Shown: piece after piece, positions 6,699-23,971 of the stretch
Layout: the number at the start of each line of letters is the position of its first letter
Numbering within the stretch: position 1 is the first letter of the stretch
DNA from: a virus
Direction: 5' to 3' (one strand)
Length of the DNA: 23,971 bases
Virus record (IMG/VR): IMGVR_UViG_3300044641_007032
Location: 1-23,971 of that record
Program-made: the position numbers and the translations under genes
The notes under the pieces: generated by a model
What the model saw: the letters and a program-made list of their open reading frames with translations, nothing else
Told to the model about the DNA's origin: nothing
Databases searched by the model: none

Positions 6699-7750
6699 AA
6701 ATTGGTGTTTACGCACTGGCGAAGAACGAGGCGGCAAACGTGCCGGCGTGGGAATCGTCCTGCCGCGAGGCGGACGTTCGCGTCGTCACCGACACCGGCT
6801 CGGCCGACAATACGGCAGAGCTGCTCGCCCAGGCGGGCGTCACGGTCGCCCGCGGCTGCCCTATGCCGTGGCGATGGGACGACGCCCACAACCTATCGCT
6901 TTTCCACCTGCCTGCCGACGTGGACGTGTGCGTCCGGCTCGACCTCGACGAAGTGTTTGACCCAGGCTGGCGGGAGGCCATAGAGGCCGATTGGCAGGCC
7001 GACACGACACGGCTCCGCTACTGGTATCACTGGTCGGATAGCGTCAAGTTTCTGTGCGACCGCGTTCATTCCCGCAGCGGCTATCGGTGGCAGGGAGCGA
7101 CGCACGAGGGGCTTGTCTGCTGGTCCGGCGAGGACCGACAAGCGATGAGCGATCGGCTGCGAATTCGCCATCATCGCCAGCCGGGAAAGCGGCATAGCAC
7201 GGACCTCACGCTTTTGAGGCAGGCCGTCAAGGAAAACCCGCTGGACAGCCGGATGCTCTGGTATCTGGCGAGGGAGCTGGACTACGCACGCGACCCAGAA
7301 GCCTTTGAGGCGTGGCAGCGTTACCTGCGGATGCCTGGAGGCAATCCAACGGAACGAGCGTATGCGTGCCGGATGCTCGCCAACATCGAGAAGGACAAAG
7401 CAAAGCGGCACCTGCTGACAGCCATCCTTGAAAGCCCGCTCGAGCCCGAGGCGTTTGTCGCGTTCGCGGAAATGGCCTATCGCATGGAGGATTGGGTGAG
7501 CTGCCTCTACTACGCTCGCCAAGCCTGTTCGTGCCCGGCCGGATCGCAGACCCACGCGAGCGACCCGCGGGCCTACGGAGAGCTGGCCCCAGACCTGGCA
7601 AGCGTCGCCGCTGCTCGCCTTGGGCGGGACGCGGAGGCATTGGCGTTTGCCCGCGAGGCCGTGAGGCGGTGCCCGAGCGATCCACGCCTTGTCGGCAATA
7701 TGGCTGTCCTGGAACGTAAGGCTACGGAGGTCGGCCCAAAGGCCGCGTGA
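6695..7750 (+). CDS. Family 2-type glycosyltransferase with C-terminal TPR-like repeats
   Basis: A 351-residue protein. The N-terminal GT-A fold shows YALAKNE, then VTDTGSADNT (residues 31-40) for nucleotide-sugar binding, and LDLDE with the metal-binding DxD at 83-85. HxGxxH-like and WQGATHEG blocks follow. The C-terminal half (about residues 165-350) is helical, with TPR-like pairs such as AEMAYRMEDWVSCLYYARQA and ARLGRDAEALAFAREAVRRC. Such GT2-TPR proteins occur in phages and bacteria and transfer sugars to proteins or surface glycans. The position next to tail genes suggests glycosylation of virion proteins or of host receptors. Confidence 0.82.
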   Translation: MKIGVYALAKNEAANVPAWESSCREADVRVVTDTGSADNTAELLAQAGVTVARGCPMPWRWDDAHNLSLFHLPADVDVCVRLDLDEVFDPGWREAIEADWQADTTRLRYWYHWSDSVKFLCDRVHSRSGYRWQGATHEGLVCWSGEDRQAMSDRLRIRHHRQPGKRHSTDLTLLRQAVKENPLDSRMLWYLARELDYARDPEAFEAWQRYLRMPGGNPTERAYACRMLANIEKDKAKRHLLTAILESPLEPEAFVAFAEMAYRMEDWVSCLYYARQACSCPAGSQTHASDPRAYGELAPDLASVAAARLGRDAEALAFAREAVRRCPSDPRLVGNMAVLERKATEVGPKAA

Positions 7751-7751
7751 A

Positions 7752-8219
7752 ATGGGAAGCATTGCCGTTGAGATTGCCGACGCCCTTGCGGCCGGCCTTT
7801 CTGCTTACACCTTCTCCGAACCATACGAGTCGATTACAGCCGTCCGCAGCTACGTCCCTGACTACGAGGCGACCGAGCTAAAGACGCTCAAGGTGTCGGT
7901 TGTCCCTGGACCGGTCGAGACGGAGCGTGCCAGCCGCGGGCAAGAGCTTTTTACGCAGCAGGTTTCTGTCGTCATCGGAAAGCTCGTCGACGGCACGAAC
8001 GAAGACATCGACGCCCTCACGCTCTTGGGCCAAGAGATCATCGACGCGATCCGGTCTGAGGTGCTCGTCACGACAGGAATGCCGGAGGAAGCCCACTACT
8101 TCGCGGCCTCGATGGAAGTGCAGTTTGATCGCGACTCCCTGACGAAACGGAGAATTTTCCTCGCCCAGATCGACGTCACATACCGCGTACCGCGGCCTCG
8201 CATCGAGGCACAGGAGTAG
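7752..8219 (+). CDS. Tail terminator/completion-like protein
   Basis: A 155-residue protein beginning MGSIAVEIADALAAG. It has the layout of tail completion proteins: an N-terminal helix, a beta-rich middle with KVSVVPG and QQVSVVIG strands, helices around NEDIDALTLLGQEIIDAI, and a final strand RRIFLAQIDVTYRV. It would cap or finish the tail tube at the head end. It starts 1 nt after the glycosyltransferase stop and precedes the neck-type gene, the usual order in siphoviruses. Assignment is by pattern and position. Confidence 0.65.
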   Translation: MGSIAVEIADALAAGLSAYTFSEPYESITAVRSYVPDYEATELKTLKVSVVPGPVETERASRGQELFTQQVSVVIGKLVDGTNEDIDALTLLGQEIIDAIRSEVLVTTGMPEEAHYFAASMEVQFDRDSLTKRRIFLAQIDVTYRVPRPRIEAQE

Positions 8220-10531: not shown

Positions 10532-12865
10532 ATGTCGTCAGCCGCAGGGGTCCGCGCAGGCGGGGCCTTCATCGAAATTTTTGCGAAGGACGGCCAATTC
10601 CAGCAGGCGATGCTGAGGGTCCAGGGCAAGCTCAAGGCCGTCGGCAGGATGATGCAGCAGATGGGGACGATGCTCTCCCTCGCCGGGACTGCGATCGGCG
10701 TGCCGATGGTACTCGCCGCGAGGCAGGCTGCCACGTTTGAAGACGCCTTGCTCGGTATGAAAGCCGCGGCCGGCCTGACGGACAAGCAGGTTCAGCAGTT
10801 GGCGGACGAGGCTCTGCGGCTTTCAAAGGCAATGGGAATTGACCCCGCCAAGATCGCAAATGCGTTTCTGGAGCTTACGAAGGCCGGCATGTCGGTCGAG
10901 GACGTTTTGGCAGGCGCCGGCCGGTCGGCCGTGGAATTCGCACGGGTGTCTGGCGTCGAGATGAAGGACGCCGCCGAGTTTATGAAGGTGGCGATGAACA
11001 CGTTCGGCATCTCGGCGAAGGATGCCGTCGACACGCTTTCCGCGGCGGCGGACGCCAGCGAAACGTCGATCGCTGCGATGGTCGAATCGTTTTCTCAGGT
11101 TGGTTCGGCAGGAAAAACATTTGACCAGACGCTATTCGGCGTCGCGCAGGCGATGGCGGCCCTCGCGAAGTACGGCATCTCGGGCGAGGAGGCCGGAACG
11201 GCGATCAAGACGCTACTCACAAAGCTCGTGGCCCCGACGGGCGAGGCCCACGAGGCCTTGGCGACATTGGGCCTGTCGGTGCGAGACTTTCGCGATGAGG
11301 CCGGGAAGCTGCTTCCGATCGCCCAGATCGCCGGGGTATTCGAAAAAGCGCTATCCAAGATGGGAGGCAACGCCGAGGACGTGATGATGGCCCAGGCGGC
11401 CCTCGTCGACGTGTTTGAGCAACGCGGCATCAAGGTCATCGGGGCGTTCGCGGACCTCGGCGAGAAGGGGTTTGAAGACATCGCGGCCGCCATGGAGGGC
11501 AACCTGCCAGTGGCGGCGAAGTTCGAGATCATGATGAGCGGCATCACCGGAGGATTTGAGAGGCTTTTTGCGGCGACGAAACGTCTATCCATCGCGTTCG
11601 CCGGTGCCCTTGGAAGCTCCGTATCGTCTGTCGTGAGCGGCATCGTCAAGGTGATGGATTTCATTTCTCAACTCATCGCGAAGTTTCCCATACTGAGCAA
11701 AGTGGCCGCCGGCGCTGCTGCCGTTTTGATCGGCCTAGGCGCTGCCTTGATCGTCGTGGGTCTAGGCTTGCGCGTTGTTGGGGTTGCCATCGCGGCGATT
11801 ACGAGCCCGATAGGAATTGTGGTCGCGGCTGTTGGCGGCCTTTTGGCGGTGGCCTACAAGCTGTCGCCGGCGTTCAAAGAAGCCGTCGATTCAATCATGG
11901 CGGCGTTTGCGAAGCTGGATATTGGCCTAGCCTTCCAGCAGATCAACGTCACCATTGCCATTGCACTTACTCGCATGGCGAAATTGTTTCACGTCACATT
12001 TGCCGGCGTCATGGCACGCGCCAGCGAAATGGTCGATTTCATCGTCGACCAGGTAAACAGAGCCGCGAACCAACTCAACAGATTAGTGGGCGGCAACGGA
12101 AACGAGTTTCCAGTGCTCGGCAGGGATGGTCGCCAAAAGCGAGCAGACGACCGACGCAAAGCTATCGAGGACCTCGGCAAGAAATACGACGATACCGTCC
12201 GCGAGCTGCGAGCCGAGTTGGCAGACGCCAAAAGAAAGGCGAATCGGCAGCCGGACCCAGCGCCGGCCGCCGAGGGTAACGACGCGAGGAGAGACAGGTT
12301 CCGCAAGCCGCTCGGTGGTCCAGGTGCAATGACGAAAGCCGACCCGATCGCGTCTCTTGGCACGTTCGCCAGCTCCATGCTCGGCCAGCTCGGCATCGGG
12401 CCGAAAATTGACATTCGCGAAAGGGCTGCCAAGGCACAAGAAAAGGCCGCGGACGCGATGAAGGGCCTCAATGACCGCATCGGCGGCTTCCTGGACGAGA
12501 TGAAGAAGCGAGTCGGCGACCGGCAGCCTAGCGGTGCGACCATCGACACGACGAAGGGCGACGTAAACAAGACTCCAGAGATGCAGGCCGACCCCAGCAA
12601 GCTGCCGTGGTGGGCACCGCAATCAGAGTTCGAAAAGCTCAACAAGGGGCCTGGTGGCGGGATGAGGCTGGAGGACGCCATCGAGCAGCTCAAGGTGTCG
12701 CCCAGGGCAGGCTACGGCAACGAGCCACCTAAGCCTCCGCTAGACAAAACGAGCAAAGACATGGTTTCGGCGAGCGAGCAGACGGCGGCCGCTATGCAGC
12801 GTGCAGTCGATTACCTCTCAAAAATCTACGAGCAAACAAAACGAGGTGGCGTCGCGTTCGCGTGA
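10532..12865 (+). CDS. Tail tape measure protein
   Basis: A 777-residue protein, the longest in the window. The N-terminal part carries the TP901/PhageMin tail pattern (MGTMLSLAGTAIGVPMVLAARQAATFEDALLGMKAAAGL, then repeated helices with MAKYGISGEEAGTAIKTLLTKL-like blocks). A long hydrophobic region (about residues 390-446) could insert into the host membrane during injection. The C-terminal third is charged, helical and Lys/Asp/Pro-rich. By the usual rule of about 1.5 Angstrom per residue, the tail would be roughly 115 nm. The position after G/GT is standard. Confidence 0.88.
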   Translation: MSSAAGVRAGGAFIEIFAKDGQFQQAMLRVQGKLKAVGRMMQQMGTMLSLAGTAIGVPMVLAARQAATFEDALLGMKAAAGLTDKQVQQLADEALRLSKAMGIDPAKIANAFLELTKAGMSVEDVLAGAGRSAVEFARVSGVEMKDAAEFMKVAMNTFGISAKDAVDTLSAAADASETSIAAMVESFSQVGSAGKTFDQTLFGVAQAMAALAKYGISGEEAGTAIKTLLTKLVAPTGEAHEALATLGLSVRDFRDEAGKLLPIAQIAGVFEKALSKMGGNAEDVMMAQAALVDVFEQRGIKVIGAFADLGEKGFEDIAAAMEGNLPVAAKFEIMMSGITGGFERLFAATKRLSIAFAGALGSSVSSVVSGIVKVMDFISQLIAKFPILSKVAAGAAAVLIGLGAALIVVGLGLRVVGVAIAAITSPIGIVVAAVGGLLAVAYKLSPAFKEAVDSIMAAFAKLDIGLAFQQINVTIAIALTRMAKLFHVTFAGVMARASEMVDFIVDQVNRAANQLNRLVGGNGNEFPVLGRDGRQKRADDRRKAIEDLGKKYDDTVRELRAELADAKRKANRQPDPAPAAEGNDARRDRFRKPLGGPGAMTKADPIASLGTFASSMLGQLGIGPKIDIRERAAKAQEKAADAMKGLNDRIGGFLDEMKKRVGDRQPSGATIDTTKGDVNKTPEMQADPSKLPWWAPQSEFEKLNKGPGGGMRLEDAIEQLKVSPRAGYGNEPPKPPLDKTSKDMVSASEQTAAAMQRAVDYLSKIYEQTKRGGVAFA

Positions 12866-18150: not shown

Positions 18151-18657
18151 ATGCCCACTACCCTGTCCGGCTCGCGTTCGGCGTCGCTCTCCTGGTCGTT
18201 TTCCGACGCCCCGTCGATTGGCAGCCTTTCAGAATCCGCGAGTATCTCCACGTCGCGGAATATCGCGAACGGCACGGGCGAGGGCCAGGCGAACGTCGCG
18301 TGGCGGAATCGCGTCACGATCGCGAGCGGCGATACCTATTCGGTGTCGCTCGACAACCTCGGAGCGACGGCGTTCGCGTTCGGCGGCAAGGTCGTCATGA
18401 CAAAGCTCAAGGAGATGCGGGTCGCCGTCAACACGACGGCGGCCGGCCGCTACGTTCTCGTCGGGGTCATCGGGCCGGGCGATACGACCGGCTACTCCGC
18501 TCGAGTGAACCGCGGCGGCGACTATGCCGTGGCGGACTACCTGGACGGCTGGCCGGTCACGAACACGAATAAGACCGTCTACATCGCCAACCCCTCGGGC
18601 GGCAGCGTCGAGATTGATATTGCGTTCGTCGGCGTCGGCTCGACGGTCGACACTTAA
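18151..18657 (+). CDS. Beta-rich virion-type protein (168 aa)
   Basis: The protein is rich in Ser, Thr, Gly and beta strands, for example SGSRSASLSWSFSDAP and VTIASGDTYSVSLDNLGATAFAFGG. It lacks Cys and resembles structural or tail-associated proteins. It ends with a TAA that overlaps the stop of a minus-strand gene at TTAA (18654-18657). It is the last plus-strand gene. Confidence 0.5.
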   Translation: MPTTLSGSRSASLSWSFSDAPSIGSLSESASISTSRNIANGTGEGQANVAWRNRVTIASGDTYSVSLDNLGATAFAFGGKVVMTKLKEMRVAVNTTAAGRYVLVGVIGPGDTTGYSARVNRGGDYAVADYLDGWPVTNTNKTVYIANPSGGSVEIDIAFVGVGSTVDT

Positions 18658-18917
18658 CGCACGACGTTGATGGCAGCATCCGCCACGTCAAGGATCGAAC
18701 GGCCGAGGCGTCGCAGCCGGCCGGGATCCTCGGGCACGCGGGCGGGCGCGGGCGGCTCCAGGCGCGCGACCGGGCCGGGCATCGTAGAGCACGCGCGGGC
18801 GGCGGCCTCGATCGCAGCCAGTTGGTAGCGTGTTTCCACGAGCAAGCCGGCCGCCGCGGCCATAACGGCCACGGCGAGCACGGCCCGCACGATGTCGCGG
18901 ATGCTGGCGGCGATCAT
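18654..18917 (-). CDS. Single-pass membrane protein (87 aa)
   Basis: Residues 1-30 include a hydrophobic anchor (IRDIVRAVLAVAVMAAAAGLLVE), followed by a Pro/Arg-rich tail and a C-terminal helix (GRSILDVADAAINVV). The ATG overlaps the stop of the gene before it as ATGA. It may be a membrane anchor; function unknown. Its stop codon overlaps the convergent plus-strand stop. Confidence 0.55.
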   Translation of the reverse strand: MIAASIRDIVRAVLAVAVMAAAAGLLVETRYQLAAIEAAARACSTMPGPVARLEPPAPARVPEDPGRLRRLGRSILDVADAAINVVR

Positions 18918-19198
18918 GTGCCGCCCCCCGCGGGGCAGAAGTCTCCGAAGCACTCGACAAAGTTCTGAATCTCGGGGTTGGCGATCCCCTCAGCCACGAG
19001 CCGGCGGGCGGATTCCATCGTGATGCAATCCTCGACGTAGAGCTGGCCGTCGCGGCCGACGTAGTCGTGCTCGCAATAGCCGATCCAATCCAGGTCGAGC
19101 AGGCACTCCATATCGTCGAGATAGTCGAACGTCTCTCGCGACAGCGGGCAGCGGCCGGCCTCGGCACAATCCTCGTAAAAACGCTTAACGGCTCCCAT
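18914..19198 (-). CDS. Acidic Cys-containing hypothetical protein (94 aa)
   Basis: The protein has seven Cys (CAEAGRC, MEC, YCEHD, EDC, ECFGDFC) and many acidic and aromatic residues. Its good ribosome binding site AAGGAGAC is the reverse complement of 19202-19209. It is the second gene of the first operator-headed unit (19516 to 18654). No family is recognised. Confidence 0.55.
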   Translation of the reverse strand: MGAVKRFYEDCAEAGRCPLSRETFDYLDDMECLLDLDWIGYCEHDYVGRDGQLYVEDCITMESARRLVAEGIANPEIQNFVECFGDFCPAGGGT

Positions 19199-19228
19199 GA
19201 TCGTCTCCTTCTGGTGGTGGTGGTGAAA

Positions 19229-19516
19229 TCAACCCTGGTAGTCGGCGAGCCATACGATCTCGTCGAGCAGTTCGTTTTGCCCCATGCGGTAAAGGGCGGC
19301 GTGAGCGAATTCGTCGAGCGGTTGACCGGCGGCGGCGTACTCGGCCGCCACGTAGGCGGGCGAGAGCGAACCGTGTCGGGCAAGCTCCTCGGCGCGGGCC
19401 AGGCCGTCGAGCGGATAATCGTCGAGCACGCGGGCGATGTCCGTCTCGAGTAGGCCGTGGGCGGCCTCGTGAGGCGGGCAGGCGTCGAGCACAATATCGT
19501 CGGCATCGGGTGTCAT
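19229..19516 (-). CDS. Hypothetical acidic protein (95 aa)
   Basis: The protein begins MTPDADDIVLDACPPHEAAHGLLETDIARVLDD and is acidic and helical, ending GQNELLDEIVWLADYQG. The start has the shared leader GAGGAACCCGACCGATG. It is the first gene of the unit whose promoter and operator lie at 19563-19591. Unknown function; acidity could fit a DNA-mimic or regulatory role but no motif shows that. Confidence 0.55.
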   Translation of the reverse strand: MTPDADDIVLDACPPHEAAHGLLETDIARVLDDYPLDGLARAEELARHGSLSPAYVAAEYAAAGQPLDEFAHAALYRMGQNELLDEIVWLADYQG

Positions 19517-19562
19517 CGGTCGGGTTCCTCGGGTTATGTCGGGCGGCGTGCCCAACGGGGTG

Positions 19563-19591
19563 ATATTACCGATCGGATACAACAAAGGCAA
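19563..19591 (-). promoter_or_regulatory. Promoter with operator palindrome (unit 1)
   Basis: Minus strand: -35 TTGCCT (19586-19591), 17-base spacer, -10 TAATAT (19563-19568). The 16-base operator-like site is at 19565-19580 (plus-strand form ATTACCGATCGGATAC). A TSS near 19556 would give a leader of about 40 bases to the ATG at 19516. Confidence 0.5.
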
Positions 19592-19620
19592 GAGTTGAAA
19601 CAAAAACATTCCTCGGGCAA

Positions 19621-19836
19621 TCAGCCGGCGACGCTTCCGCGGGGGCGGCCGCGTCCGGCTGGAGTCTTCGCGTAAGCCGCGACGCTAGAGCGTTCGGCGA
19701 AAAACACGCCGTCGATCTCGATGCCGCCGATCTTCCCCTCCTTGACCTGGGTGCGCATCCACAAGCGGGACACGCCGGCCAGTTTGGCGGCGTGGCCGAT
19801 CGTGAGATAGCGGGAGGGGTCGATTCTCGGGGGCAT
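19621..19836 (-). CDS. Helix-turn-helix (excisionase/MerR-like) protein with GRGRPRG tail (71 aa)
   Basis: YLTIGHAAKLAGVSRLWMRTQVKEGKIGGIEIDGVFFAERSSVAAYAK is a typical winged-helix segment of excisionase-type DNA binders. The C-terminus GRGRPRG resembles an AT-hook. The ATG at 19836 is preferred, because the promoter -10 (19843-19848) places the transcription start almost on it; an upstream ATG at 19863 lies within the promoter. It is a candidate regulator of the operator set. Confidence 0.65.
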   Translation of the reverse strand: MPPRIDPSRYLTIGHAAKLAGVSRLWMRTQVKEGKIGGIEIDGVFFAERSSVAAYAKTPAGRGRPRGSVAG

Positions 19837-19842
19837 GTCGTG

Positions 19843-19870
19843 ATTATTGCCGAACGGTTGCATTGGTCAA
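19843..19870 (-). promoter_or_regulatory. Promoter with operator palindrome (unit 2)
   Basis: Minus strand: -35 TTGACC (19865-19870), 16-base spacer, -10 AATAAT (19843-19848). The operator-like site is at 19846-19861, plus-strand form ATTGCCGAACGGTTGC. Start of transcription would fall on or near the ATG at 19836. Confidence 0.55.
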
Positions 19871-19892
19871 GGCTCATCGGGCAAGGCTCCAA

Positions 19893-19942
19893 AAATCCTA
19901 GAACACGCGGGCGCGGGAAATCCTAGAACACGCGGGCGCGGG
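19893..19942. repeat. 25-bp perfect tandem repeat, two copies
   Basis: The copies are 19893-19917 and 19918-19942, each containing TCCTAGAACACGCGGGCG. The second copy overlaps the end of the gene at 19923-20150. A related degenerate pair lies at 22753-22805. In both places the repeat lies just past the stop codon of a minus-strand gene. Confidence 0.7.
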
Positions 19943-20150
19943 GCATCCTCGAGCGGCGGCCGGCCCGGTCGCGGCGGGCAAGCTCGGCGGCGGCGTAGGA
20001 AATTTCGTCTTGGTAGCGGCCGGCGTTCGGAGAGTCCGGCCAAGCCGTCAGCGATTCCCGGCAGTCCGAAATAGTGTAGGCCAGTTCGGCGTCGGTCATC
20101 CGGCGGCAGCGGCGGGGGTATTCGGCGTGGTCAATCTCTCGGGTCGTCAT
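19923..20150 (-). CDS. Small conserved-type hypothetical protein (75 aa)
   Basis: The protein contains YPRRCRRMTDAELAYTISDCRESLTAWPDSPNAGRYQDEISYAAAELARRDRAGR, a helical pattern. It has the leader GAGGATTCCACGCCATG and its C-terminus (MPRARVF) is coded within the 25-bp repeat. It closes the ArdA unit. Function unknown; it may be a regulator or an inhibitor, as with other small accessory phage proteins. Confidence 0.55.
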   Translation of the reverse strand: MTTREIDHAEYPRRCRRMTDAELAYTISDCRESLTAWPDSPNAGRYQDEISYAAAELARRDRAGRRSRMPRARVF

Positions 20151-20201
20151 GGCGTGGAATCCTCGGGTAAATGGTCGGGCGTCGTGCGACGTGCTCGGCG
20201 T

Positions 20202-20242
20202 CCCCCTGGCCGGCCGCGGCGTGGCCGGGGCCGGCGTGGGGG
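20202..20242 (-). terminator. GC-rich hairpin after the 20252 stop
   Basis: CCCCC (20202-20206) can pair with GGGGG (20238-20242), and GCCGGCC (20209-20215) with GGCCGGC (20229-20235). No T-run follows, so it may be an attenuator, a processing or a stability element rather than a full terminator. First of five comparable hairpins. Confidence 0.4.
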
Positions 20243-20251
20243 CAGCCGCGG

Positions 20252-20551
20252 CTAGACTGCGGCGGCGACGTTCGAGGCGAACGGTAGCGGGCCCTCGGCG
20301 ATCGCCTGAAGCCGCGTGCGGCCGGTGTAGCGGATTCTCCACTCGCCATAGCTGCAGGCGGGGTAGGTGCCGCCGATCCAGTTCTCGACACGCTCGGCCC
20401 GGTGGCCGGTGGCGGCGGCGATAGTTTCGTAGCGTTCGCGGATGATTTCCACGAGGCGGCTTTTTGTTTTCCTCGCGGCGTAGACCACGAGCAAGCGCCG
20501 GCCGTCGGGGTGCTCGGCGGCAATTTCGTAGGTGGTATGGAGCTGGGGCAT
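20252..20551 (-). CDS. Hypothetical protein (99 aa) with conserved WIGGTYPACSYGEW block
   Basis: The protein begins MPQLHTTYEIAAEHPDGRRLLVVYAARKT, then RLVEIIRERYETIAAATGHRAERVENWIGGTYPACSYGEWRIRYTGRTRL. It looks mixed alpha/beta and soluble, with a Cys and several aromatic residues near the middle. Leader GAGGAACCCAACCGATG matches its neighbours. I recall this sequence type in small phage proteins but know no function. Confidence 0.55.
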   Translation of the reverse strand: MPQLHTTYEIAAEHPDGRRLLVVYAARKTKSRLVEIIRERYETIAAATGHRAERVENWIGGTYPACSYGEWRIRYTGRTRLQAIAEGPLPFASNVAAAV

Positions 20552-20615
20552 CGGTTGGGTTCCTCGGGTTGGGGTTTGGGATTGCGTGGCCGCGTCGACC
20601 ACGCCGGACCCGGTG

Positions 20616-20638
20616 CCGCCGGCCTCGGGCGCCGGCGG
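20616..20638 (-). terminator. GC-rich hairpin after the 20656 stop
   Basis: CCGCCGGC (20616-20623) pairs with GCCGGCGG (20631-20638) around a 7-base loop. It lies 17 bases past the stop of the gene at 20656-21021. Confidence 0.4.
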
Positions 20639-20655
20639 GGGCGGGGGCGGCCGGG

Positions 20656-21021
20656 TTATCGGGCGTAGTCGGCGGTTTGGTCGAGTTGGTCGAGCACTTC
20701 GCCGGCGATGTCGTCGGCTGCCTGTCCGGCATCGAAGTCGTGCGGGTCGAAGCACACCCGCACCTCATGCACCGGCCAGCGGCTGCGCGTGGCGTCAAGG
20801 TCGATCGCGACGCGGACCACCCCGCGGGGTATGTTCGGGTACTTGTGGCCTAGATACGGAATGTCGGCGAAGCACACCCGAACGCTCGGCCGATAGGCTC
20901 CGTCGGCCGATTGGGAGTTGTAATCGCGGCGGGGGGCGTGCCCGTCTTCGATCTGCGCGAGGACAGAATCGGCGACATACTGCACGGCCTCGGCGTAGCT
21001 CATGGTGGCGGTAGTGTTCAT
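20656..21021 (-). CDS. Hypothetical protein (121 aa)
   Basis: The protein has a helical N-terminus (SYAEAVQYVADSVLAQIEDG), then a beta-strand region with VRVCFADIPYLGHKYP and VHEVRVCFDPHDFDAGQAADDIAGEVLDQLDQTADYAR. It is acidic at the C-terminus. The leader CAGGAGCCCAAACCATG is shared with neighbouring genes. No family is recognised; its place beside ArdA suggests an accessory or anti-defence role by association only. Confidence 0.5.
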   Translation of the reverse strand: MNTTATMSYAEAVQYVADSVLAQIEDGHAPRRDYNSQSADGAYRPSVRVCFADIPYLGHKYPNIPRGVVRVAIDLDATRSRWPVHEVRVCFDPHDFDAGQAADDIAGEVLDQLDQTADYAR

Positions 21022-21074
21022 GGTTTGGGCTCCTGGAGTTGTCGGGCGTCGTCGACGTGACGGCATCCCCGGTG

Positions 21075-21097
21075 CCGGCGTCCACGAGCGACGCCGG
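21075..21097 (-). terminator. GC-rich hairpin after the 21112 stop
   Basis: CCGGCGT (21075-21081) pairs with ACGCCGG (21091-21097), with a 9-base loop. It lies about 14 bases past the stop of the gene at 21112-21348. Confidence 0.35.
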
Positions 21098-21111
21098 GGG
21101 CGGGGCGGCCG

Positions 21112-21348
21112 TCACAAGCCGCAAGCGCGGGCGCAAGCGTCCTCGTAGAGCATGTCGAACCGATCGCCGCCGCGGTCCTGTTGGGCGGCAAGTTTCGCGG
21201 CGGTCGTCGAGTCGACGGCGTAGGCTTTGGAGGTCGAGTAGACGTACCAGGCGGTCGAGCCGGCCGGCAGTCGGCGGCCGGTTTCGGCACAAGTGGCGGC
21301 ATACTTCAAGGTCAACACGCGGGGCGGGCAGTAGTTGCGGCGTTTCAT
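21112..21348 (-). CDS. Small Cys-containing protein (78 aa)
   Basis: The sequence MKRRNYCPPRVLTLKYAATCAETGRRLPAGSTAWYVYSTSKAYAVDS has the pattern of a short zinc- or nucleic-acid-related domain (C..T..GxxLxxG...WY). It ends DMLYEDACARACGL. Leader GAGGAGCCCAAACAATG fits the series. Function unknown. Confidence 0.5.
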   Translation of the reverse strand: MKRRNYCPPRVLTLKYAATCAETGRRLPAGSTAWYVYSTSKAYAVDSTTAAKLAAQQDRGGDRFDMLYEDACARACGL

Positions 21349-21415
21349 TGTTTGGGCTCCTCGGGTCTAGGGTTTCGGGTTGTCGAGCTGGCGGCGTGCC
21401 AGGTCGGCCCGGTGC

Positions 21416-21438
21416 CCCCTGCCGGCGAGCGGCAGGGG
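21416..21438 (-). terminator. GC-rich hairpin after the 21456 stop
   Basis: CCCCTGCCG (21416-21424) pairs with CGGCAGGGG (21430-21438), a perfect 9-bp stem with a 5-base loop. It lies 17 bases past the stop of the gene at 21456-21794. Confidence 0.45.
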
Positions 21439-21455
21439 TGGCCGGGGCGGCCGGG

Positions 21456-21794
21456 TTACGCGATGCCCACGTAGGCGACGCCGGCGCGGATCGGCCGGAC
21501 GTCGGCGGCGGCTCCCCGCGTCGCGGCGTGGTGGCGGTTCGCGGCCTCGATGCCGGCGAGCACCAACGACGCCTTGAAGGTCTGCTCGGCGACGGCCGGC
21601 ATTCCGGCGGCGATCGCTTCGCGTGCGTCGCCGAAGGCCGTGTCGAGCACCTCGGCGGCGGCCTCAAGGACGGCGTGCGCGATCGGCTCGGCGTCGGCCG
21701 CGATGTAGTCGGGCTGCCATCCGAGGGCCTCGAGTCGGCGGCGGGCGGCTCGGGTCATGATCTCGCCGGCGGCGGCGGTAAGGGCTGCGGTCAT
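21456..21794 (-). CDS. Ala-rich helical protein (112 aa)
   Basis: The protein is Ala-rich and helical: MTAALTAAAGEIMTRAARRRLEALGW, then AEPIAHAVLEAAAEVLDTAFGDAREAIAAG. The leader AGGAGATCCCAGACCATG is related to its neighbours' but with an 11-base gap between AGGA and ATG, unlike nine in the others. Its function is unknown. It may bind DNA or another protein through its helical bundle. Confidence 0.5.
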   Translation of the reverse strand: MTAALTAAAGEIMTRAARRRLEALGWQPDYIAADAEPIAHAVLEAAAEVLDTAFGDAREAIAAGMPAVAEQTFKASLVLAGIEAANRHHAATRGAAADVRPIRAGVAYVGIA

Positions 21795-21845
21795 GGTCTG
21801 GGATCTCCTGGGGTTGCGGTCGGTCGGAAGTCGGCCGGCCCGTCG

Positions 21846-21870
21846 CCCCACGGCCGCGGGCGCCGTGGGG
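21846..21870 (-). terminator. GC-rich hairpin after the 21885 stop
   Basis: CCCCACGGC (21846-21854) pairs with GCCGTGGGG (21862-21870), a perfect 9-bp stem with a 7-base loop. It lies 14 bases past the stop of the ArdA-type gene. Confidence 0.45.
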
Positions 21871-21884
21871 GTGCGGGCGGGCCG

Positions 21885-22424
21885 TCAGTTGGTCGCGAAC
21901 ACGTAGACGCCGCGGGGGGCGTCGTGAACCTCGACGTCGCCGGAAAGCCGCAGGTCGTTTGCCATGCGGTCCCAGTCCACGTATCGGGCCGGGTGCCACC
22001 AAGAGCCGCCGGCGGCCTTGTCGGCGTCGTAGCCGACGTCGTCCCAAAAGCTCTCGACGTACTCGGCCAGCGTCCGCCATTCGCCGCGGTAGACGTCGGC
22101 GAATTCCGACGGGTCGCGGCCGGCCTCGGCGTCGAGCCAGGCGAGCAACGCGGGCGCGGCGTCGCCGGCCTCGGCGACGGCCTCGCCGATCTCGGCGACG
22201 CGGTCGAGGTCTTCGTACTCGCCGATGTCGCCTAATCCCTCGTGGTCGTGGATGGCGAATTCCTCGGCGCCGGGCTCGGGGCTCTCGGCGAGCATCGCGG
22301 CGATTTCATCGCGGATGGCGTCGGCCCCGATCGTGGCGTCGATCCATCGGCCGTGGAGCCGGCCGGCGTTGTAGGCGGCAAGGCAGGCGGCGTAGATGCG
22401 GGGCGTGGTGTTGGTGGCGTTCAT
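21885..22424 (-). CDS. ardA: ArdA-type antirestriction protein
   Basis: A 179-residue, strongly acidic protein. The opening TPRIYAACLAAYNAGRLHGRWID (residues 7-29) and EEFAIHDHEG (54-63) match the ArdA family, whose members mimic DNA and block type I restriction-modification enzymes. Length agrees with the usual 165-180 residues. The C-terminus (WHPARYVDWDRMANDLRLSGD) is the familiar final domain. ArdA is common on conjugative elements and some phages; here it heads the six-gene ArdA unit (22424 to 19923). The promoter and operator B lie upstream at 22492-22520. Confidence 0.88.
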   Translation of the reverse strand: MNATNTTPRIYAACLAAYNAGRLHGRWIDATIGADAIRDEIAAMLAESPEPGAEEFAIHDHEGLGDIGEYEDLDRVAEIGEAVAEAGDAAPALLAWLDAEAGRDPSEFADVYRGEWRTLAEYVESFWDDVGYDADKAAGGSWWHPARYVDWDRMANDLRLSGDVEVHDAPRGVYVFATN

Positions 22425-22491
22425 CGTTTGGGTTCCTCGGTTCAAGTGGTTTCCGCCGATTGACCGCGGCGGCGTCGGTTGTTTCGTAGGT

Positions 22492-22520
22492 GTTATATCC
22501 AATCGGCAACAAGTGGGGAA
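22492..22520 (-). promoter_or_regulatory. Promoter-like -10 with operator palindrome (ArdA unit)
   Basis: Minus strand: TATAAC at 22492-22497 is a good -10 box. The 16-base operator-like site is at 22495-22510 (plus-strand form ATATCCAATCGGCAAC). The -35 region (TTCCCC at 22515-22520) is poor, so activation or a different upstream element is possible. Confidence 0.45.
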
Positions 22521-22524
22521 GGGC

Positions 22525-22725
22525 TCACAATTTTTTTTCGGCGTCGGCGGCTTTCGCGGCCTCGGCGGCCTCCAGGTGGCGGACAAGCTCGCGGGCCTCT
22601 TGGCGGTCGTCGCACGTGGCGACCCACGAGCGGCGGCCGTCGGCCTCCAGGGCCTCGACCTCGAACCAGTAGCAAGCGCCGCGGCTGCGGGGGTCGGAAA
22701 TTTTTCGGATTAGATAAGTGGGCAT
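22525..22725 (-). CDS. Hypothetical protein (66 aa)
   Basis: The sequence MPTYLIRKISDPRSRGACYWFEVEALEADGRRSWVATCDDRQEARELVRHLEAAEAAK forms an antiparallel beta sheet followed by a helix, like a small single-domain fold. The leader is CAGGAGCCCCGACGATG. It follows the gene at 22809-23066 in the same unit. Function unknown. Confidence 0.5.
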   Translation of the reverse strand: MPTYLIRKISDPRSRGACYWFEVEALEADGRRSWVATCDDRQEARELVRHLEAAEAAKAADAEKKL

Positions 22726-22752
22726 CGTCGGGGCTCCTGTGGTTGGGGTTGA

Positions 22753-22805
22753 AAATCCTGGAACACGTGGGCGGGCGATAATTCCTGGAACACGCGGGCG
22801 GGGGG
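22753..22805. repeat. Degenerate pair of the 25-bp repeat
   Basis: Copies begin near 22753 and 22780, sharing TCCTGGAACACG and a GGGCG tail with the perfect pair at 19893-19942. The spacing here is 27 bases rather than 25. They lie between the stop of the gene at 22809 and the start of the gene at 22725. Confidence 0.6.
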
Positions 22806-22808
22806 CGT

Positions 22809-23066
22809 TTACTCCGCGAATAGGTCAAGGGTCCGCGGCTTTGCGGCCGGCAGTGTGCTGGTGAATCGCGGCGGCTCGGTTGCTCCGTGGTCGGCGAGTT
22901 TCTTCACGAAGAATTCCGCCGTCCACCAGCAATCGGAACCGCGGCCGCCGGCAATGTCTGCGGCTCGGCTCAATTCGCCGGCAGCCATTGTTTCGACGAC
23001 GCGGCGGACGTCCGCCGGCATGGCGGATAGTTCGGCGGACAGTCTGCAGAATTGATTAAACGTCAT
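22809..23066 (-). CDS. Hypothetical helical protein (85 aa)
   Basis: The protein begins MTFNQFCRLSAELSAMPADVRRVVETMAAGELSRAADIAGGRGSDCWWTAEFFVKKLADHG and is helical with two Trp in the middle. It follows a promoter with operator (unit E) by about 7 bases, with GGAG in the short leader. Function unknown. Confidence 0.5.
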   Translation of the reverse strand: MTFNQFCRLSAELSAMPADVRRVVETMAAGELSRAADIAGGRGSDCWWTAEFFVKKLADHGATEPPRFTSTLPAAKPRTLDLFAE

Positions 23067-23079
23067 GGCAGGGGGCTCC

Positions 23080-23108
23080 GTTGTAGTCGTTCGGCAACAA
23101 AGGGTCAA
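23080..23108 (-). promoter_or_regulatory. Promoter with operator palindrome (unit 4)
   Basis: Minus strand: -35 TTGACC (23103-23108), 17-base spacer, -10 TACAAC (23080-23085). The operator-like site is at 23083-23098 (plus-strand form GTAGTCGTTCGGCAAC), sharing the right arm TCGGCAAC with the sites at 22495 and 23726. Confidence 0.5.
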
Positions 23109-23716
23109 AAAGGAACAACGCGACGCGGCCGGCCCATAGTGGGGTGACGGCGAAAGTTTTCGGCGGCGGACCTTGAAACGAGATAGCAGCGGCCGACGCG
23201 GACGGCCGGCAGGCGGCCGGCCTTGACGAGTTGCCGCAACCATTGTTCGGTTACGTCCGCGAGGCCGGCGGCCTCCGGCAGCGGCACCAGGTCCGACACG
23301 TCGCCGACGGCTGGCACGGCGGCCGCCGGTGCTTCTGCGGCGGCCTTGTCGATCGCCTTTCGCATAGTCTCATCGGCCGTCGGCAAAACTGGTGCAGGAG
23401 CCGTCACAAGGTCCCACAATGCGGCGGCCGGGTCGTCGGCTCCTAATTCGGGAATTTCGCCGGCCGCGAGTTCGCGGGCGATGTCGTCAAAGCCTCGAAC
23501 GTTCGTCGCGTCGCCGGTCGTCGTGGCGTGCCGGTTTTTGAATTGGAACTGGCCGGCGTGTTTGACGCCCAAATAGGCGAAAGCAATTTTTCGAGCTTCA
23601 AGCGTACGGGCGATCGCGGCCGTTTCGAATTCGCGAAGCTCAGCATAAATCGCCCGGACGGCCGACCATTCAAGGCCTAATTCCGCGGCGGCGTTTTTGT
23701 GCTCCGTTGTTCTCAT
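23105..23716 (-). CDS. Helix-turn-helix protein with GRPR tail (203 aa)
   Basis: The N-terminal 65 residues are helical (TEHKNAAAELGLEWSAVRAIYAELREFETAAIARTLEARKIAFAYLGV). The middle is Pro/Ala-rich. The C-terminal 55 residues form an excisionase-type winged helix: LVPLPEAAGLADVTEQWLRQLVKAGRLPAVRVGRCYLVSRSAAENFRRH, followed by GRPRRVV. The shape resembles the 71-residue protein at 19621-19836. The ATG at 23716 lies at the predicted transcription start, so the mRNA may be leaderless. It is a candidate master regulator of the minus-strand units. Confidence 0.6.
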   Translation of the reverse strand: MRTTEHKNAAAELGLEWSAVRAIYAELREFETAAIARTLEARKIAFAYLGVKHAGQFQFKNRHATTTGDATNVRGFDDIARELAAGEIPELGADDPAAALWDLVTAPAPVLPTADETMRKAIDKAAAEAPAAAVPAVGDVSDLVPLPEAAGLADVTEQWLRQLVKAGRLPAVRVGRCYLVSRSAAENFRRHPTMGRPRRVVPF

Positions 23717-23722
23717 GCTTGT

Positions 23723-23751
23723 ATTGTTACCTATCGGCAACAACCGAACAA
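23723..23751 (-). promoter_or_regulatory. Promoter with operator palindrome (unit 5)
   Basis: Minus strand: -35 TTGTTC (23746-23751), 17-base spacer, -10 AACAAT (23723-23728). The operator-like site is at 23726-23741, GTTACCTATCGGCAAC, the best palindrome of the set. This would be autoregulation if the protein it drives is the repressor. Confidence 0.55.
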
Positions 23752-23904
23752 GGGGGTTAAAAATAAAAAAAGTTTTTCGGTCAAATTGGCGGCCGAATTT
23801 TCTGCTTTTCAGTATTTCGAGGCCGAAATATCTAATTGGACAGTTTGGTGAAATCGAATTTCGGCAACCCGAATTCCCCCCATACGTGGGGGGTCTCGAG
23901 GCCG
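23752..23904. other. AT-rich gap with no gene
   Basis: This stretch has A- and T-runs (AAAAAAAGTTTTT near 23764) in a G+C-rich sequence. A half-site TCGGCAAC occurs at 23861-23868. No convincing ORF is present on either strand. It may be a control or origin region at the end of the early block. Confidence 0.35.
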
Positions 23905-23971
23905 TCACGGGCTCCAGGCCTCACGGGCTCCAGGTCTCACGGTTTCCAGGTCTCACGGTCTCACGGTCTCA
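23905..23971. repeat. Tandem repeat: 16-bp units shifting to 8-bp units
   Basis: Units of TCACGGGCTCCAGGYC begin at 23905, 23921 and 23937, the third with GGTTTCC in place of GGGCTCC. Then TCACGGTC occurs at 23953 and 23961, and a partial unit ends the window. The array runs off the edge. Confidence 0.8.

Follow-up and report, generated by a model that had tools for sequence, protein, structure and literature searches.

A putative operator dyad shared by five promoters of an anti-restriction gene block in an uncultured virus

We describe here a short palindromic element that recurs in five minus-strand promoters of IMG/VR virus record IMGVR_UViG_3300044641_007032. The stretch analysed, referred to here as the window, is the complete record, which is linear, 23,971 bases long, and probably a fragment of a larger genome. 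Its plus strand carries structural and other genes, with a tape measure gene at 10532-12862, and its minus strand carries at 18654-23716 a block of about 13 small genes that encode, among others, the anti-restriction protein ArdA and two helix-turn-helix (HTH) proteins of the HTH_17 type. We refer to the latter as HTH71 and HTH203, after their lengths of 71 and 203 amino acids (aa). The putative promoters and operators, with scores in bits from the matrix described below, and the genes most relevant to them are:

23723-23751, minus strand: promoter P1 with operator O1 (GTTGCCGATAGGTAAC, 23726-23741; 22.7 bits); -35 TTGTTC at 23746-23751, 17-bp spacer, -10 AACAAT at 23723-23728
23105-23716, minus strand: HTH203, 203 aa; helical N-terminal part, C-terminal HTH_17 winged helix, GRPR tail; PF12728, E=2e-6; second candidate regulator
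23080-23108, minus strand: promoter P2 with operator O2 (GTTGCCGAACGACTAC, 23083-23098; 17.9 bits); TTGACC, 17 bp, TACAAC; before the 85-aa gene at 23066
22492-22520, minus strand: promoter P3 with operator O3 (GTTGCCGATTGGATAT, 22495-22510; 27.3 bits); poor -35 TTCCCC, 17 bp, -10 TATAAC; before ArdA at 22424
21885-22424, minus strand: ArdA anti-restriction protein, 179 aa; PF07275, E=8e-31; phrog_2059, E=2e-25
19843-19870, minus strand: promoter P4 with operator O4 (minus strand GCAACCGTTCGGCAAT, 19846-19861; 12.7 bits); TTGACC, with ATAATC at 17 bp or AATAAT at 16 bp
19621-19836, minus strand: HTH71, 71 aa; Xis/BldC-like winged helix at residues 10-57, GRGRPRG tail; weak PF12728 match; best repressor candidate
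19563-19591, minus strand: promoter P5 with operator O5 (minus strand GTATCCGATCGGTAAT, 19565-19580; 22.2 bits); TTGCCT, 17 bp, TAATAT; before the 95-aa gene at 19516

The five elements lie, as an earlier note on this DNA had reported, at 19565, 19846, 22495, 23083 and 23726, each within or over the -35/-10 pair of a minus-strand promoter that can be read from the sequence with a 17-bp spacer. That note had counted four good -35 boxes, which leaves room for the poor one of the ArdA unit (22520-22515), and had described a right arm conserved at three of the five sites, which we find as TCGGCAAC at 22495, 23083 and 23726. At all five promoters the dyad reaches from the spacer, much of which it fills, into the first bases of the -10 box. 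At P1 and P4, 6 nucleotides (nt) separate the -10 box from the ATG of HTH203 (23716) and of HTH71 (19836) respectively, and both mRNAs are on this ground predicted to be leaderless in the window.

The exact 16-mer GTTACCTATCGGCAAC occurs once in the window (23726), and a search allowing up to three mismatches finds only that copy; a 16-mer search shows no family because the other four sites differ from it by more than three bases. We therefore cite scores from a matrix built from 48 promoter sites of related phage contigs only, with the window excluded. On both strands its top six places are 22495 (27.3 bits), 23726 (22.7), 19565 (22.2), 23083 (17.9), 5856 (13.2) and 19846 (12.7), so that all five sites are included, with the ArdA site scoring highest, and the one additional place, 5856, is inside a coding region. 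At a cut-off of 12.5 bits the six places compare with a mean of 0.41 in dinucleotide shuffles (maximum 3, n=200), and at 17.5 bits four places compare with a mean of 0.01 in shuffled windows; the reversed matrix finds no place in the window. A blind repeat finder joins 19562, 22492, 23080 and 23723 in one group (D10). When the block alone is scanned with a plain sigma-70 consensus, only the 19870 promoter comes up, which is not above shuffles, and the promoter call thus rests on conservation. The observation of five shared elements is confirmed.

Most of the roughly 60 related IMG/VR contigs, which are uncultured temperate phages, have the same putative operator at two to six of their promoters, and it lies there in a homologous block of small genes that contains ArdA or ArdC, two HTH genes, a primase-polymerase (prim-pol) gene and many genes of unassigned function; ArdC (PF08401+PF18818) and Prim-Pol were identified among the relatives' block genes. 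HTH203 gave eight close relatives in viral contigs and ArdA three more, and an HTH203 alignment extended the collection to 20 loci, the most distant at about 40% identity. One arrangement precedes nearly all HTH203 orthologs, for example TTGACC-CGTTG-TTGCCGATAGG-C-TACAAT-6 nt-ATG. In the first set, the 20 contigs that bear operators have sites repeatedly at five positions: before and directly after each of the two HTH genes, and ahead of a unit in the middle of the block, which may be ArdA, ArdC or other genes. The sites directly downstream of the two HTH genes are both kept in most relatives. The arrangement TTGAC - ~11 nt - (C)CGAYCGGCAAYAAT - 6 nt - ATG, with variants, precedes all 20 of the first-collected HTH71 genes, with a weaker element in some of them, and the HTH71 genes of most of 64 later loci. 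Leaderless mRNAs are likewise predicted for the HTH71 genes of the first-collected relatives and for many of their HTH203 genes.

The element is also confined in its distribution. Four nearly whole contigs of 40-44 kb (G001 and G005-G007, the contigs of loci L002, L006, L007 and L008) have three to five block sites each, and the 88 kb examined outside their loci yielded only four weak places. A check for enrichment at gene starts in the roughly 60 related contigs shows a strong concentration at promoters of the homologous block and near absence from the rest of these four contigs. This family-wide concentration supports the proposal in the earlier note that a putative repressor regulon covers the minus-strand block, ArdA included. 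The pattern TTGAC-N5/7-TTGCCGATNGG-N-TANNAT has 12 matches in 2.9 million viral contigs; ten are in family contigs (seven already collected, three newly recognised), and the other two have no block-gene match. We also note that L035 (7909), L036 (180), L038 (7873), L040 (7876) and L089 (141) have, some 70-80 bp upstream of the HTH203 promoter, a further operator-like site that faces the other way (TTGCCGANNGGACA), possibly a cooperative or looping site, and that one 77-kb contig (G412, IMGVR_UViG_3300042453_002958) contains two related elements about 30 kb apart, each with an integrase, an HTH71-type gene and its own operator variant.

The operator may be idealised as a 14-bp dyad of 5-4-5 geometry, TTGCC-GATC-GGCAA. 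The arm on the -10 side usually reads GGATA, GGCTA or GGTAA and is eroded because the -10 hexamer overlaps it, and at the HTH71 promoters this arm is better (CGGCAAYAAT) and the -35-side arm weaker. Perfect dyads are present in L011 and L012 (GTTGCCGACCGGCAAC), L110 (GTATCCGATCGGATAC), L112 (TTACCGATCGGTAA), and L139 and L140 (GTATCCATTCGGATAC). The arms tend to change jointly, as TATCC/GGATA (L078, L139, L140, L146 and L147), TTACC/GGTAA (L112 and L115) and a TTGTC/GACAA-like pair (L135 and L136), and the two promoters of L078 carry TATCCAGTCGGATATCAT and TATCCAATCGGATATCAT behind TTGACG. Across 168 promoter-embedded sites a mean of 1.33 of the three outer pairs is complementary, compared with 1.03 +- 0.055 when right arms are re-dealt (maximum 1.20 of 1000), although this set includes some spurious sites and comes from related contigs, so that the covariation is support for the dyad and not proof. 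The dyad looks real on these grounds. Operator arms may also vary with the recognition helix, with SRLHLR proteins mainly accompanying TTACC/TGACC and most others TTGCC, in small counts from related sequences and with many subfamilies left without sites after filtering.

Both HTH proteins had been named as candidate regulators in the earlier note, and both keep an operator in their own promoter, but the 71-residue protein fits the role better and the 203-residue protein less well. The first 20 operator-bearing loci to be examined all encode HTH71. An HTH71-type gene is accompanied by operator-like sites without HTH203 in L078 (the second element in the 77-kb contig of L040), L127/L128, L139/L140, L146 and L147, most of which have the TATCC operator variant and a distinct HTH71 subfamily with a TRAY helix and no GRPR tail. 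L028 and L030 encode an HTH203 that is about 60% identical and has a very similar HTH, yet have neither an HTH71 gene nor an operator. We favor HTH71 because the HTH71-only contigs keep operator-like sites and the two HTH203-only contigs have none. In L035 two HTH71 domains are fused in tandem in one open reading frame, which fits a protein working as a dimer. AlphaFold2 (AF2) models both proteins as winged helices, with predicted local distance difference test (pLDDT) scores of 79 for HTH71 and 82 for HTH203. A Foldseek search of solved structures with HTH71 gave no match below E 0.001; its matches to Pukovnik Xis (4j2n) and BldC (6ama) have E-values of 0.025-0.1, a probability of about 1.0 and template modelling (TM) scores by target of 0.71-0.74. 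The nearest solved folds for HTH71 and HTH203 are TraN, Pukovnik Xis, BldC and other MerR-superfamily domains, all with weak E-values, and a sequence search of the PDB with both HTH families gave no meaningful match.

Several observations weigh against the assignment to HTH71, and one of them is the relationship between the two proteins: the HTH71 profile matches the HTH203 C-terminus at E about 1e-10 to 1e-14, the DNA-binding domains are homologous, and HTH203 could bind these sites alone or in competition. The HTH203 gene moreover opens the regulon, its own promoter contains the operator, and it is conserved along with the block. That HTH203 is the repressor, or that the two proteins compete as a two-protein switch, is nonetheless unlikely in our judgement, given the operator-less L028 and L030 and the several contigs with operator-like sites but no HTH203. 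This comparison of co-occurrence is itself confounded by block synteny and shared ancestry, and its HTH203-only side consists of two related, incomplete contigs. Half-sites may also differ between promoters of one phage (CTATCC and GTTGCC in L094-L104), and one protein would have to tolerate both. Contigs of the TATCC group lack an operator immediately before the HTH71-type gene, which lies downstream in the block. BldC-like proteins, which like Xis-like ones are among the solved fold neighbours of HTH71, bind direct repeats, not dyads. The same is true of excisionase-type recombination directionality factor (RDF) proteins such as Apl (PMC7498355), and the dyad mode of binding by HTH71 is thus a prediction.

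There are three further explanations. A short HTH_3 protein is encoded alongside the integrase and a tRNA-Arg-like 3' end in all four nearly whole contigs of the first set, and lysogeny repressors with multiple operators exist, so that a CI-like XRE/HTH_3 protein could bind the block operators. We consider this quite improbable, because a different dyad lies over a leftward TTGACY-17 bp promoter just downstream of the XRE gene (L002, about 7935-7970, AGAAAACT-N11-AGTTTTCT; L006-L008, about 7355-7450, CCTAAAAACT-N11-AGTTATTAGG), where it would be the natural operator for the XRE protein and is a probable lysogeny operator, and because the 41-kb record of L038 has several block sites and no HTH_3 match; the block element is thus probably not the XRE operator. 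A search confined to the block-operator matrix gave no site between the XRE and integrase genes of L002 and L006-L008. Recognition by a host regulator, LexA-like or other, has in its favor that phages often use host regulators and that LexA boxes are similar in geometry to the 5-4-5 dyad. However, across 84,980 species genomes of bacteria and archaea the promoter-plus-operator pattern gave 13 scattered single matches, a number near the chance expectation, and this speaks against a host regulon; in viral contigs the pattern marks this phage family, and the operator variants track phage HTH71 subfamilies, so that we regard a host regulator as very improbable. The shared element might finally be a promoter signature and no operator, either of early promoters read by a phage factor or of a copied promoter, since it is always in the spacer and over the -10 box and copying of whole promoters would spread it. 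But the -35 and -10 boxes are already sigma-70-like, the arms co-vary, and the perfect dyads of L011 and L012 lie after the HTH203 gene where the downstream arm forms no recognisable -10, which leaves this explanation with hardly any probability. Activation by MerR-type spacer twisting was considered and rejected, as the spacers are 17 bp in the window (16 or 17 at P4) and 16-18 bp by eye in the relatives, and not the overlong 19-20 bp.

As for the host itself, the last 50 nt of a tRNA-Arg(ACG) in L031 match the tRNA of one Planctomycetota genome at 98% and those of others at 90-96%, which is compatible with a planctomycete host in a comparison with Planctomycetota alone. Among 392 Planctomycetota genomes none showed a recognisable prophage of this kind, and an HTH203 search there gave only HTH-domain matches; HTH203 relatives were found neither in GTDB genomes nor in 50,697 phage records.

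Taken as a whole, we consider it likely that an autoregulated phage repressor, most likely HTH71 acting as a dimer, would bind operators at two to six separate sigma-70 promoters of the block. The sites, their promoter position, the dyad symmetry, the conservation within the family and the tie to HTH71 genes are read from the sequence; binding by HTH71, repression, and the timing and order of the following steps we infer. At DNA entry no repressor would be present and the near-consensus promoters would fire, producing ArdA or ArdC and the other block genes in a burst. HTH71, being under the same operator, would build up, and its dimer on the spacer and -10 box would keep RNA polymerase off, such that all block promoters, including that of HTH71 itself, would be shut off. 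We put forward more tentatively, as a possibility somewhat short of an even chance, that HTH71-type proteins are an undescribed class of dedicated anti-defence regulon repressors, Xis/BldC-like with a GRPR tail and leaderless mRNAs, whose half-sites diversified with their recognition helices and whose operator marks many uncharacterised anti-defence genes of uncultured temperate phages.

The remaining listed genes of the block are:

22809-23066, minus strand: 85-aa protein, function unassigned; by-eye similarity to conserved cluster c15 sequences, no match in Pfam and PHROG searches
22525-22725, minus strand: 66-aa conserved protein, function unassigned; cluster c11
19923-20150, minus strand: 75-aa conserved protein, function unassigned; cluster c2, 19 members; last gene before HTH71
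19229-19516, minus strand: 95-aa protein, function unassigned; cluster c78; first gene of the last unit
18914-19198 and 18654-18917, minus strand: reading frames after the 95-aa gene in the last unit

Some of the block genes have no operator of their own, and the five units therefore cover the block only if several genes are co-transcribed. The 75-aa gene probably belongs to the ArdA transcription unit, and P5 probably drives the two reading frames that follow the 95-aa gene in addition to that gene.

Other sequence features of the block and its relatives are also of note. A leader of approximately AACCCGAGGAACCCAANCGATG (minus strand) lies just upstream of the ATG of many block genes (19511-19541, 20546-20576, 21343-21373, 22419-22449 and 22720-22750), and the blind repeat finder places these leaders in two groups (D3 and D4); the start-associated sequences of some mycobacteriophages resemble it. 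Two tandem pairs of a repeat of about 25-27 bp (minus strand CCCGCGTGTTCTAGGATTT; group D2) are at 19888-19944 and 22748-22806, the first of which looks like a duplication of the codons that end the c2 gene (PRARVF*); L004 and L005 have a similar motif upstream of HTH71. Very G+C-rich inverted repeats between block genes (20599-20658, 21058-21117, 21399-21458 and 21840-21890) are possible attenuators, or terminators without a T-run. The record ends at 23890-23971 in short direct repeats (TCACGGKYTCCAGG-like), so that a repeat upstream of HTH203 is probably where the contig breaks off; in relatives the integrase region is at this place. In the relatives we also see by eye a CsrA-like small protein in the leftward operon (L002 7037-7282 and L007 6390-6653) and a 385-aa block protein (L011 2747-3904 and L029 2821-3978) that has no Pfam match and resembles TGT-like DNA-modification (DpdA-type) proteins.

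Regulation of anti-defence promoters by an autoregulated repressor is a known kind of system. What is new, as far as our searches went, is the operator family, its spread over multiple promoters of a phage anti-restriction block, a candidate repressor that is Xis/BldC-like, and operator variants that go with HTH71 subfamilies; a limited search of the open-access literature found no description of this operator system. By predicted structure HTH71 appears to share the winged-helix fold class of excisionase and RDF regulators such as Apl of phage 186, Pukovnik Xis and BldC. Apl represses early promoters, and its binding sites, at att and in the interval from pR to pL, are direct repeats spaced by one helical turn (PMC7498355), whereas here single dyads lie in dispersed promoters. 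The arrangement is also reminiscent of multi-operator lysogeny repressors, in which one repressor serves many dispersed operators at early promoters. The phiC31 CIRs and P1 C1 are such systems. Mycobacteriophage L1/L5 repressors are a further example, with asymmetric operators (PMC1934351), whereas the operators described here are dyads confined to one block, and these phages encode in addition an XRE repressor that has a probable operator to itself.

The closest parallels concern anti-defence genes. Aca autorepressors bind inverted repeats and impose autorepression after an early burst (PMC9410906). As with Aca, a small HTH protein is encoded with anti-defence genes, a single inverted repeat lies within the core promoter (here in the spacer and -10 box of all five window promoters and in relatives), the regulator gene is under the same operator (the HTH71 promoter in all 20 first-collected loci, the HTH203 promoter in most), and autorepression after an early burst from consensus-like promoters is predicted by analogy. 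Unlike Aca, one operator family extends over two to six separate block promoters and not one acr-aca operon, and the candidate repressor is an Xis/BldC-like winged helix. The known anti-defence genes of the block are ArdA and ArdC; no anti-CRISPR (acr) was identified among its genes, although no acr-specific search was made, and no anti-CRISPR-associated model of NCBIfam matched, the only relevant match being the excisionase-type domain TIGR01764, below its cut-off. Reg of p576 and other clade II conjugative plasmids of the pLS20 family controls the strong promoters of the EGeRS2 establishment regulon, which are expressed transiently once the DNA has entered (PMC8708921). There too a single autoregulated repressor encoded on the element is paired with one operator family at several separate promoters of anti-restriction and establishment genes, its own included, and transient expression would be expected by analogy for the phage block. 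The systems differ in that Reg is a ribbon-helix-helix protein of plasmids that binds dual heptamers (TTATCCCnnTTATCCC) outside the promoter core, whereas the phage proteins HTH71 and HTH203 are HTH_17-type winged helices and the 14-bp dyad is inside the core. O4, before HTH71, has the lowest matrix score of the five window sites; a weakest operator at the regulator's own promoter, as in p576 Reg, was considered as a design feature and dropped, as relatives are inconsistent and the matrix is biased by the -10 box.

Because repressor and operator appear to have changed together, the family is suited to studying how very small Xis/BldC-like proteins recognise a dyad. In archaeal viruses a conserved early-gene regulatory motif has been used to find anti-defence genes (PMC11065993), and the operator described here similarly is a shared regulatory sequence that marks many small early and anti-defence genes and can serve as a search tag, although it comprises a bacterial sigma-70 promoter, a dyad operator and a candidate repressor where the viral motif belongs to archaeal promoters. 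As with that motif, one operator tagging several promoters of the ArdA/ArdC block offers a direct listing of anti-defence and early genes in uncultured phages.

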